8,688 nucleotides of DNA from positions 1 through 8,688 of the forward strand of contig RFHZ01000846.1 in assembly GCA_003696125.1 (NCBI GenBank), written 5' to 3'. Position 1 is the first letter of the stretch, and each line of letters begins with the position of its first letter. A model generated the notes under the pieces. That model searched no databases, was not told where the DNA came from, and saw only the letters and a program-made list of their open reading frames with translations. The stretch is from Nitrospinota bacterium (GTDB lineage Bacteria > Tectomicrobia > Entotheonellia > J063). Shown here piece by piece: positions 119 through 8,688 of this stretch. Made by a program: the position numbers and the translations under genes.

Positions 119-232
119 CAGATCCATGTGGTAGCGGTGTCTCTACTACCATAGGGACAAAGATCGGCTGTGCACATTGTACTTCTCTAGCGGGATCAAC
201 CCGATACCAATTACTTGTATTTCGGAATGTGT

Positions 233-239
233 AAGGAGG
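233..239 (+). promoter_or_regulatory. Shine-Dalgarno site that sets the htrA start
   Basis: AAGGAGG lies six bases before ATG 246. The frame is open upstream to an ATG at 177, but that start has no ribosome site. It would also put 23 residues, including a run of four arginines, ahead of an otherwise well-formed signal segment. Confidence 0.8.
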
Positions 240-245
240 AGGCGT

Positions 246-1715
246 ATGTTTTGGTATGTAAGGAAACACTGGCTGATCATTCTCCCAGTCCTTTTCCTGA
301 TCCTGGGAGGGATCGCATTCCTGGGCTCATCGAGTCAGGCCCAGGGGAAAAAGTTCTGGTCTGAGAAGCCGGGGGAAGAGATCCTCGCTCCCATGCCCCC
401 GTCGTTTAGCGTGCTGGTGGAGAAGCTGCAGCCGGCCGTGGTCAATATCAGCACCACCCAGGTGGTCAAAGAACGCGGTCGCTTCTTCCACTTCCCCAGC
501 CCTTTTGGTGAACGCCGTCCCTCTCCCCAGGACCCATTTGAAGAGTTCTTCCGGCGTTTCTTTGGCGATATTCCCGAGCGGGAGTTCAAGCGACAGAGCC
601 TCGGCTCAGGGTTTATCATCAGTCCTGACGGGTACATCGTGACCAACAACCATGTGGTCGAAAACGCCTCGGAGATCAAGGTGATCCTGAGCAACGAGGA
701 GGAATATGATGCAGAGGTGGTGGGACGCGATCCCAAGACCGATCTGGCCCTGATCAAGATCAATGCCAAGAACAGTCTCCCGGTCGTTCCCCTGGGCGAT
801 TCGGATAAACTGAAGATCGGGGACTGGGTCATCGCCATCGGGAATCCGTTTGGCCTGAGCCATACGGTGACGGCAGGGATCGTCAGCGCCAAGGGACGGG
901 TCATCGGTGCCGGTCCGTACGACGACTTCATCCAGACCGATGCCTCCATCAATCCGGGAAACAGTGGGGGACCGCTCTTCAACACCCGGGGAGAGGTGGT
1001 CGGCATCAACACCGCCATCATCGCCACCGGCCAGGGGATCGGTTTCGCCATCCCCATCAACATGGCCAAACAGATCCTCCCGCAACTGCGTGAGAAGGGG
1101 AAGGTAACCCGCGGCTGGCTCGGGGTACAGATTCAGCGTATCACCCCAGAGCTGGCCAAATCGTTCGGCCTGGAGAGCGAGCGGGGCGCGCTGGTTGCCG
1201 ACGTCATTGAGGGCACCCCGGCCGAGAAGGCGGGTCTGCAACGGGGAGACATCATCATCGAATTCGATCACAAACCGATCAAAGAGATGAACGACCTGCC
1301 TCGTATCGTGGCCAATACCCCTCCTGGGAAACGCGTTCCTATCAAAGTCCTCCGGCGGGGAAAGGAGAAGACCCTGTACGCCACCATCGCCGAGATGGAA
1401 GAGGAGCGCATCGCCTCGCGGGAGACCACAGAAGAATCGCTGGGGCTCACCACCCAGGAACTGACTCCGGATATCGCCAAGAGTTTGGGGCTTTCCGATG
1501 ACAACGGGGTGGTGATCACGGATGTCGAACCGGGCAGCCCGGCCGATGAGGCCAATCTGCGACGGGGAGATGTGATCCTGGAGATCAACCAGCACCCGAT
1601 AAAGACGATGGAAGATTACAAGAGGATGCTGGATCAGATCAAGAAGGGGGATACGGTCCTCTTCCTGGTACGACGTGGCAACAACACCTTCTATACGGCG
1701 GTCAAAACAGGATAA
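246..1715 (+). CDS. htrA: HtrA/Deg (Do-family) periplasmic serine protease with two PDZ domains
   Basis: The product is a 489-residue ATP-independent protease/chaperone of the S1C (DegP/DegQ/MucD) family, which degrades or refolds damaged envelope proteins. Residues 1-32 form a signal peptide or membrane anchor: basic start MFWYVRKHW, then a hydrophobic run to about residue 27, with possible cleavage after SQA. A Phe/Pro/Arg-rich linker (about 78-115) resembles the LA loop of DegP. The protease domain shows the full triad: His136 in TNNHVV, Asp166 in KTDLALIK and Ser240 in GNSGGP. PDZ1 spans about 290-385 and PDZ2 about 400-487, each with a GD-x-I core strand. Length is normal for the family (DegP is about 475). 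ATG 246 was chosen for its strong Shine-Dalgarno site. The next gene begins 14 bases after the stop, suggesting co-transcription. I found no convincing promoter in 119-245. DegP, DegQ and MucD cannot be separated from sequence alone. Confidence 0.95.
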   Translation: MFWYVRKHWLIILPVLFLILGGIAFLGSSSQAQGKKFWSEKPGEEILAPMPPSFSVLVEKLQPAVVNISTTQVVKERGRFFHFPSPFGERRPSPQDPFEEFFRRFFGDIPEREFKRQSLGSGFIISPDGYIVTNNHVVENASEIKVILSNEEEYDAEVVGRDPKTDLALIKINAKNSLPVVPLGDSDKLKIGDWVIAIGNPFGLSHTVTAGIVSAKGRVIGAGPYDDFIQTDASINPGNSGGPLFNTRGEVVGINTAIIATGQGIGFAIPINMAKQILPQLREKGKVTRGWLGVQIQRITPELAKSFGLESERGALVADVIEGTPAEKAGLQRGDIIIEFDHKPIKEMNDLPRIVANTPPGKRVPIKVLRRGKEKTLYATIAEMEEERIASRETTEESLGLTTQELTPDIAKSLGLSDDNGVVITDVEPGSPADEANLRRGDVILEINQHPIKTMEDYKRMLDQIKKGDTVLFLVRRGNNTFYTAVKTG

Positions 1716-4707: not shown

Positions 4708-5763
4708 ATGCGAGCAAGGCTATGCCCTACTGTCCTCCTTCTCCTCCTGGGGGGATGGTATGCCATCTCCACAGCAACGTCGATCGATCCGCAACAGATC
4801 GTTACCCTCCTCCCCCAAGACGCCATTCCAGCCATTCTGGACCCGGCCCCTCTCCTCGTCTCTGCCCAGGAGGCGGAAGCGGAGATGGAGGAGGATGAAG
4901 CGGTCATCGGGGTGAGCTGGGCAGGGGAAAGCCACGCCTACCCGATCACCTTCCTTAGCTGGCATGAAATCGTCAACGATGTGGTGGGAGGCAAGGCGAT
5001 CGCCGTGACCTGGTGACCCCTCTGCTACACGGGGATCGTGTATGCCCGGGAATACGGAGGGGAGACGCTCACCTTTGGCGTGTCGGGAAAACTCTATGCC
5101 AACTCGCTCATCATGTACGATCATCAAACCGGAAGCCTGTGGAGCCATCTGACCGGTGAGGCCATAACCGGAGCCAAACGAGGCACCAGGCTACGCGTCT
5201 TACCGGCCATGCAGACGACCTGGAAACTCTGGAGAGCGCTCCACCCGGAGACACTGGTGATCGCCAAATCCAGGAGTCCCTATCTGCGTGATTACAGCCG
5301 GGACCCCTACGAAGGCTACTACTACTCCAGCCGTACCGGGGTCATCCCCCCTCTGCGCAGAGACCAGCGGCTCAATCCCAAGGAGTATATCATCGGGGTC
5401 CGCATCGCCGGGAAAGCCAAAGCCTATCCCTTCTCCCTGCTGAACACTCATCCGGTGATCAATGACTCCTTTCAGGGCACACCGCTCCTCGTCGTCTTCA
5501 GCAGAGAGAGCGCCACGGGAATGGTTTTCCGGCGAACCCTGGCCGGAAAGGTGCTCACCTTTTCCCTGGCCGGCGAGGGCAAGGGAGAAGTCATTCTCTT
5601 ACGCGATGCTGAAACAGGTAGCCTCTGGTCCGGGTTGACCGGCACAGCGCAACAGGGGCCTCTACAGGGGAAGAGCCTGATCCCGCTTCCCCTGACCTAT
5701 GCCTTCTGGTTTGGCTGGAAAGACTTCTATCCCGATACGGTGATCTGGGAGGCTCCTCGCTGA
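4708..5763 (+). CDS. DUF3179 secreted protein, predicted selenoprotein (Sec103, UPLC motif)
   Basis: The frame runs from ATG 4708 (AAAGGAG six bases upstream) to TGA 5761-5763 and contains a single internal TGA at 5014-5016. Read as selenocysteine, this gives 351 residues. Residues 1-25 are a signal peptide (MRARLCPTVLLLLLGGWYA), so the protein is exported. It then shows the full DUF3179 pattern: IPAILDP, VIGV, AYP, LSWHEIVND, GG-x-x-x-AVTW, position 103, PLC, FGVSG, LIMYD, TGSLWS, LTGEA. Family members that I recall read CPLC where this protein reads UPLC, so the internal TGA replaces the first Cys. Function of the family is unknown; a CxxC/UxxC pair suggests redox or metal chemistry. The protein is two tandem repeats (about 65-190 and 228-351). 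Without recoding, translation would stop after 102 residues. A recent nonsense mutation or a base-call error (TGC to TGA) remains possible. The 3' end overlaps rimO. Confidence 0.82.
5014..5050 (+). promoter_or_regulatory. UGA codon with candidate bacterial SECIS hairpin
   Basis: After the TGA (5014-5016), bases 5030-5033 (CGGG) pair with 5045-5048 (CCCG). After a G-G mismatch, 5035-5036 pair with 5042-5043, closing a five-base loop CGTGT whose second base is G. The loop starts 20 bases after the UGA. A G in the first two loop positions and this spacing fit what is known of bacterial SECIS elements read by SelB. A competing stem, CCCC 5017-5020 with GGGG 5031-5034, is also possible. Hand folding only. 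Confidence 0.5.
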
Positions 5764-7330: not shown

Positions 7331-8688
7331 ATGAATCCACGAGCTTCCCTTGTCGCCGGTCTAGACATTGAGTGTGATTTTCGCACCTGGGATGGAGCCA
7401 AGATTCACCCCAAGGAGTATCTCCGAGGGGGAAAACGGTTTGAGAAGATGTACCAGCTCGGGGGATCGGTACACTTCGACCGGGACGACTATGAGATCTC
7501 GAGTTTTCCCCTCCTCTATAGCCTCCGCGATGTTCCTATCCGCAAGCTGAGCCAGAAGCTCAACGACATCCTTCGCCTCATCGAAGTCGACTGCTACCGC
7601 GCCTCAGAGGTTCTCTCTCAACTCTGTCACCGTGAGATATTTGCCGTACCGAACAATGTCCATATCAGCAAGAGCAGCAGCGGAAACGAAGAGGGACGGA
7701 ATTATCAGGGACTGGGGGTGGTGGAGCGGGGGTTTATTGTGGAGCGGATCGTGTACGATCAGATTACGCGATCGCGTGTCCCCAATGTGCGTACCAGCCG
7801 GACCAAATTCCGCAAAGAGATCCTGACGGTGTATCGACTCGATAAGACGGTGCGGCTCGCCTTAGACCTTCTCTCCGATGTCGAGTACGACCTCCTCCGG
7901 CTCATCGAGCAGCAAGAGGATGTGGTGATAGAGCAGGCCTGGCGAGAGTACCATCGCCTGAAGGAGGCAGGCACGTTAGTCTCCAGCTATCGGCAGGCCT
8001 GGATCAATCTGGCCATCACCACCCTCGAATTTCTGGAGCAATACGGGTGGGAGATCGATTGGAATACGGTAACCAGCTTGAAGAAGATCAATAAGATCAG
8101 CGTAGGGGGATGGGATGTCCCCATCTATGGGGAGAAATCGTACCGGGATCTCCTGCGCGAGTTGCTGGCCTCTCCGGCCTTTCAATGGGGGTTATTAAAG
8201 AATGGCCCCCTGGAGGATTACTGCCTGATCAAAGGCGTTGCCCTCGGCCTCATTCCCCAGAGTCCTTACCGCACCCCTGATATCATCCGCCTGGAGGGGG
8301 AACTGCCGGTGGTCGAGGATTTCCTCATCCACAGCCTTGACCAGCAGTATATCGACCAGATCAAGGAGGTAGAAGTCGAGCCGAGTATCCCCCTGGATCT
8401 GGACGCCTTTGCCATCGAGTTCAAAACCGAACCCTCTTCGGTCAGTGCAGGCATGGGAACCAAGTATGCGGTAGTCTTTAAAGAGCGCACCTCTAAGGGT
8501 CGAGGCCAGCAGCGGGTCATCCCCCTCCACCAGGTGGAAGCGATTCAAAAGGCGGTGGAAATCGGTAAAATGTATCCCCAGGGGGACATCGCCCAAACCT
8601 TCTTCGACGACCAGGCCTTTGCCTCCCTCTTCGGCATGGAGAACTTCCGGGTTGTCCCGGCCGAGGGGGGAAACGTGGTGACCTATGA
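7331..8688 (+). CDS. Large protein of unrecognised family, 3' end beyond window (amidoligase-like motifs)
   Basis: An uninterrupted frame of 452 codons starts at ATG 7331 and leaves the window; the TGA at 8686-8688 is out of frame. AGAAGG lies ten bases before the start and a promoter about 60 bases before it. I do not recognise the family. No signal peptide or membrane segment is seen. Three N-terminal motifs stand out: GLDIECDF (10-17), GGSVHFDRDDYEISSFPL (44-61) and PNNVHISKSS (107-116). Their order and spacing weakly recall the metal-binding strands of glutamine-synthetase/GCS-fold carboxylate-amine ligases, such as Dop/PafA (GIETE, then a V-D-x-x-x-H-P-E-Y strand) or bacterial amidoligases. 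Residues 155-245 look helical and charged. The C-terminal part seen (about 350-452) is a mixed region with AFAIEFKTE and KYAVVFKER strands. The protein is certainly coding; the fold suggestion is speculative. Confidence 0.8.
   Translation, partial: MNPRASLVAGLDIECDFRTWDGAKIHPKEYLRGGKRFEKMYQLGGSVHFDRDDYEISSFPLLYSLRDVPIRKLSQKLNDILRLIEVDCYRASEVLSQLCHREIFAVPNNVHISKSSSGNEEGRNYQGLGVVERGFIVERIVYDQITRSRVPNVRTSRTKFRKEILTVYRLDKTVRLALDLLSDVEYDLLRLIEQQEDVVIEQAWREYHRLKEAGTLVSSYRQAWINLAITTLEFLEQYGWEIDWNTVTSLKKINKISVGGWDVPIYGEKSYRDLLRELLASPAFQWGLLKNGPLEDYCLIKGVALGLIPQSPYRTPDIIRLEGELPVVEDFLIHSLDQQYIDQIKEVEVEPSIPLDLDAFAIEFKTEPSSVSAGMGTKYAVVFKERTSKGRGQQRVIPLHQVEAIQKAVEIGKMYPQGDIAQTFFDDQAFASLFGMENFRVVPAEGGNVVTY

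Follow-up and report, generated by a model that had tools for sequence, protein, structure and literature searches.

Sequence evidence for selenocysteine at an in-frame TGA of a DUF3179 protein, with a candidate Rieske-like scaffold

Analysis of an 8,688-nt stretch of contig RFHZ01000846.1, from a MAG named Nitrospinota bacterium (GTDB lineage Tectomicrobia), revealed a gene of the DUF3179 family whose only internal stop codon, a TGA, very probably encodes selenocysteine (Sec), as judged from sequence comparison; the whole stretch is hereafter called the window. A preliminary description of this DNA had proposed the same, and the proposal is strongly supported by the sel genes of the source assembly, by the restriction of TGA to one alignment column in 45/45 TGA-bearing genes, by Cys at that column in 41/41 other relatives and by a conserved hairpin downstream. 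Its further remark, that DUF3179 was not known to be an established selenoprotein family, does not hold: two reviews count DUF3179 (pfam11376), with a UxxC/T motif, among the selenoprotein families of prokaryotes, both citing Zhang & Gladyshev 2007 (Olavius algarvensis symbiont; PMC9312934, PMC13188914). The Sec finding is therefore correct but not new in kind; what is added here beyond the two reviews is a member from a separate phylum, evidence for a SECIS element, and a structural lead comprising a tandem repeat and a predicted Rieske-like fold. The features of the gene that bear on Sec are as follows.

4708..5763, + strand: putative selenoprotein gene of the DUF3179 family (PF11376), coding for 351 aa, the 103rd being Sec; PF11376 E-value 1.7e-91
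5014..5016, + strand: predicted Sec codon UGA (U103 in UPLC); same-column TGA in 45/45 TGA genes, TGC/TGT in 41/41 Cys forms
5023..5025, + strand: codon of the second Cys, C106 of UxxC; Cys in 86/86 aligned sequences
5030..5048, + strand: candidate bSECIS hairpin; RNAfold, RNAalifold consensus, covariation and frozen codons

The translated frame starts with ATG, contains 351 sense positions and terminates at a TGA at positions 5761-5763, its sole internal stop being codon 103, in the context AVTW-U-PLC. The Pfam DUF3179 profile was matched over its full length (positions 1-292 of 292) with 307 bits, compared with a gathering score of 27 bits, and since this match runs continuously across the TGA, no frameshift or loss of motifs is present. 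The preliminary account of the frame thus stood in all its parts: 351 codons with one interruption, nothing broken after it, TGA where relatives have Cys, and the second Cys of the pair retained. The NCBIfam search yielded no match for the window protein. The program-made list of open reading frames ends the gene at W102 and calls the C-terminal part as a separate frame, which is what ordinary gene calling would do with this gene.

Searching genome contigs at the protein level gave 27 homologues that carry TGA at the site, from Chloroflexota, Nitrospinota and two unclassified MAGs grouping with Nitrospinota, together with one archaeal contig carrying Cys forms. Of 400 genomes surveyed in the phylum to which one Chloroflexota match belongs, 81 had DUF3179, often as several paralogues and some of them with TGA; 17 further TGA-bearing genes read from this survey brought the relatives to 44, or 45 genes with that of the window, and these were aligned with 41 Cys forms (86 sequences). 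TGA occurs at one column of this alignment and at no other in all 45 TGA-bearing genes, and in all 41 Cys forms this column reads TGC or TGT, so that the position is not due to chance; the TGA/Cys pairs that the preliminary description had advised looking for among homologues are thus found at the very same site. After the TGA, the frame stays open to a proper stop some 240-265 codons further on in each of the first 27 TGA genes.

The predicted Sec forms span at least four subfamilies (TWUPLC, LVTWUPLCYTGLVHD, AYUTLC and TYUPAC/TYUVVC) and are widespread in Chloroflexota and Nitrospinota. Within the Chloroflexota group, loci L089-L098 carry the presumed Sec at the same position in the divergent subfamilies AYUTLC, LVTWUPLCYTGLVHD and TYUPAC/TYUVVC; their hairpins differ in sequence and lie about equally far from UGA. 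In a quick tree of the 86 sequences three Sec/Cys changes suffice, and a single origin of the Sec forms would still be compatible with these data. Five genomes of the window's phylum were examined and DUF3179 was present in four; apart from the window gene, these are three Cys forms belonging to another subfamily. One Cys form (L102, contig C135 of G009) shows the context of the Sec clade, TWCPLCFSA, and sits on a long branch beside that clade, possibly reflecting a Sec-to-Cys change. Two Cys-form paralogues, L099 and L100, contain in-frame TAG codons, that of L099 standing for the Tyr of AYP; decay or error is the probable cause.

Counted from the U of UGA, the stem of the candidate SECIS hairpin is formed by nt 17-23 and 29-35, with a single G.G mismatch and the loop CGUGU (5037-5041). 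The minimum free energy structure obtained with RNAfold for a 53-nt window fragment contains this nt 17-35 hairpin, whereas a 43-nt fragment folds differently; RNAalifold, applied to 28 sequences and not supplied with its position, recovered the same hairpin in the consensus. When 32 sequences representing two subfamilies were compared, standard pairs made up 95.1% of pair cells and three pairs showed two-sided changes, with a covariation of 0.203 versus 0.059 in shuffles (reached in 0/500), and the signal was lost when the partner strand was slid. Codon usage points to the same segment: in the TWU clade (35 genes) the most frozen synonymous columns are +9 (TAT, 33/33), +8 (GTG, 33/35) and +5 (ACG, 33/33), the sixth most frozen being +7 (ATC, 33/33). 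All four fall within the hairpin, and among the Cys forms the codons in these columns vary in the ordinary way.

Published limits for bSECIS elements are a loop of 3-9 nt with G in one of its first two positions, a stem of 4-16 bp, a distance of 16-37 nt from UGA and an energy of -7.5 kcal/mol or lower (PMC13188914, Fig 2). The window hairpin has this geometry, with G second in the loop, a spacing of 20 nt and a stem of seven positions including the mismatch. Its energy is -5.8 kcal/mol for the bare hairpin, -7.4 for nt 14-39 and -22.6 for the 53-nt fragment, the last value including an extra outer stem; bare hairpins of relatives L022, L018 and L024 gave -9.9, -7.7 and -2.7 kcal/mol, respectively. 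Because the window hairpin taken singly is weak (-5.8 kcal/mol, one mismatch, and at least six of the seven stem pairs kept in 18% of random synonymous recodings), the SECIS assignment rests on conservation rather than on a single fold. With consensus folding, covariation and frozen codons in agreement, the check for a SECIS-type element suggested in the preliminary description came out in favour of Sec, and the frozen codons could serve as an annotation marker for Sec-DUF3179 genes.

The source assembly (4.18 Mb, 94.8% complete) encodes SelA, SelB, SelD and tRNA-Sec, the genes whose search had likewise been recommended. The tRNA-Sec gene scored 74 bits, above the Rfam cut-off, and was also called by ARAGORN as tRNA-SeC with anticodon TCA. 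SelB (386 bits over the full model) shares a contig with most of SelA, the N-terminal part of which lies at the end of another contig, and of SelD the N-terminus was found, cut by a contig end. This SelD (L050:1-320, complement, contig C684) appears to be a selenoprotein itself, having an in-frame TGA in VACAGUASK, the usual Sec site of SelD, followed by a GC-rich hairpin. The DUF3179 window and the sel genes are located on different contigs because the MAG is fragmented (990 contigs, with 8% contamination). Since the composition of the window agrees with that of the SelAB contig (tetranucleotide r of 0.89; GC of 58.2 and 58.7%, respectively), contamination is unlikely to explain their pairing in one assembly. 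SelB exceeded the cut-off in 24/27 Sec-form genomes of the first set and 9/10 of the second. Among Chloroflexota having one DUF3179 copy only, and that of the Cys form, it was likewise found in 26/34. Its presence in Sec-form genomes is thus to be expected without being peculiar to them, and its co-occurrence (9/10 versus 26/34) was rejected as a discriminator between Sec-bearing and Cys-only genomes of this phylum.

These results bear directly on the other ways in which the TGA might be read. That it arose from faulty sequencing or assembly, or by nonsense mutation of a gene in decay, could be argued from the fragmented state of the MAG and from the stray TAG stops of the two paralogues mentioned above, but an error or decaying gene fits poorly with TGA at exactly one codon in 45/45 genes from assemblies of several phyla, with a frame that remains open for about 240-265 codons and matches the profile in full, and with downstream synonymous codons frozen in the TGA forms only; the probability of this reading is negligible. 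Hardly more credible is a genome-wide reassignment of TGA, for instance to Trp or Gly, or its read-through without Sec. One TGA is indeed read in frame, but the DUF3179 gene itself terminates at TGA, the other long annotated frames of the window are open under table 11 without TGA as a residue, SelA, SelB, SelD and tRNA-Sec are at hand in the assembly, and all relatives lacking TGA have Cys, not Trp or Gly, as the aligned residue. Sequencing error, pseudogene and code reassignment are thus effectively excluded. Under the Sec reading, selenocysteine would be inserted at codon 103 by SelB and Sec-tRNA, with the hairpin lying about 20 nt downstream of UGA within the coding sequence as their guide.

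The remaining features concern the export and architecture of the protein.

4708..4782, + strand: N-terminal signal-peptide-like stretch, MRARLCPTVLLLLLGGWYAISTATS, read from the translation
4894..5259, + strand: repeat 1, the UxxC-bearing copy, predicted Rieske-like beta-sandwich; pLDDT 95.2, Rieske-fold PDB matches with Z 8.9
5380..5748, + strand: repeat 2, both UxxC positions Ser; 36% identical to repeat 1, predicted Rieske-like with Z 8.4

The leaders of the Sec forms are of lipobox type in Chloroflexota (LAAC, LSAC and similar) and ordinary signal-peptide-like in Nitrospinota, and owing to these leaders the protein is probably exported. The gene neighbourhood of the Sec-DUF3179 loci was examined and gave no function. 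A DegP/HtrA-type protease gene is located at positions 177-1715 (+) of the window, 3 kb upstream of the DUF3179 gene, and was observed upstream in 8/8 loci of the Nitrospinota clade (L024, L025, L026, L028, L031, L032, L033 and L035); it was not seen at the Chloroflexota Sec-DUF3179 loci. A 452-aa open frame at 7331-8686 (+), running off the window end, had no significant match in Pfam or NCBIfam.

BLASTP comparison of the two halves of the protein (36% identity, E-value of 5e-29) revealed a tandem duplication, with UxxC kept in repeat 1 only. AlphaFold2 models reached a pLDDT of 86.9 for the whole protein and 95.2 for repeat 1. In the PDB, modelled repeat 1 came closest to 3c0d (Z 8.9 over 98 residues at an rmsd of 3.6), which is a putative nitrite reductase small subunit, and matched naphthalene dioxygenase ferredoxin with Z 8.6; repeat 2 came closest to a carbazole dioxygenase ferredoxin (Z 8.4 over 93 residues at an rmsd of 2.8). 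Rieske folds ranked first for both repeats, although a best Z near 8 can also reflect a common arrangement; Foldseek E-values were weak (best 0.05-0.1), with probabilities reaching 0.9-0.99. At the sequence level, the Rieske profile PF00355 did not match the window protein at E 0.001, hhalign of repeat 1 with Rieske proteins of the same genome gave a probability of 0.1%, finding no sequence homology, and a PDB sequence search returned nothing meaningful.

Rieske box II has the form CPxHGxxFDxxTGEx. The stretch DHQTGSLWSHLTGEA resembles this box, the ligands being replaced by D138 and T141, and hhalign placed it in the same register without significance. D138, T141 and W145 are invariant or nearly so in the alignment and G127 is invariant; the cluster ligands C-x-H ... 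C-x-x-H are absent from the translation. Identification of UPLC itself with box II (CPxH) was considered and dropped, as the TGEA match puts the box at D138-x-x-T141. From the fold matches and the box II-like stretch devoid of ligands, each DUF3179 repeat is read as a probable cluster-free Rieske-like sandwich, a prediction that offers a handle on this family of unknown function.

Such a product would be an exported two-repeat beta-sandwich protein, in which the U103-P-L-C106 pair would most likely cycle between selenol/thiol and selenenylsulfide outside the cytoplasm and so reduce or exchange an extracytoplasmic substrate, repeat 2, with its pair lost, being structural or regulatory. By the logic of the motif, a redox role of the UxxC pair in an exported selenol/thiol oxidoreductase is somewhat favoured. 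The pair might instead be mainly a metal or cofactor site, as the metal-binding nature of the Rieske-like scaffold and the invariance of D138, W145 and G127 would suggest; this is improbable, however, as the Rieske ligand pattern is absent, Sec in place of Cys at the first position of CxxC is typical of redox sites, and repeat 2 has lost both pair residues together. The more inclusive proposal that DUF3179 is a tandem cluster-free Rieske fold turned exported selenol/thiol oxidoreductase, employing Sec across several phyla and subfamilies, is put forward tentatively, with somewhat less confidence than the redox role taken by itself. If true, the scaffold bearing the redox pair UxxC would be of the Rieske and not of the thioredoxin type.

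Compared with the DUF3179 selenoproteins already catalogued, the window protein belongs to the same Pfam family and shares the same UxxC with Sec at the first position, but its phylum is a separate and small one. Among its homologues, the Cys forms (TF-CPLC-N...) that are common in Chloroflexota have CxxC at the same position, with both Cys invariant; they differ in having Cys for Sec, mostly Phe instead of Trp before it, hairpin codons that are not frozen, and a mostly separate main clade. To the Rieske-fold proteins, namely the dioxygenase ferredoxins and NirD, each DUF3179 repeat is similar in its predicted fold, whereas DUF3179 lacks both the PF00355 match and CxH...CxxH and carries UxxC instead.
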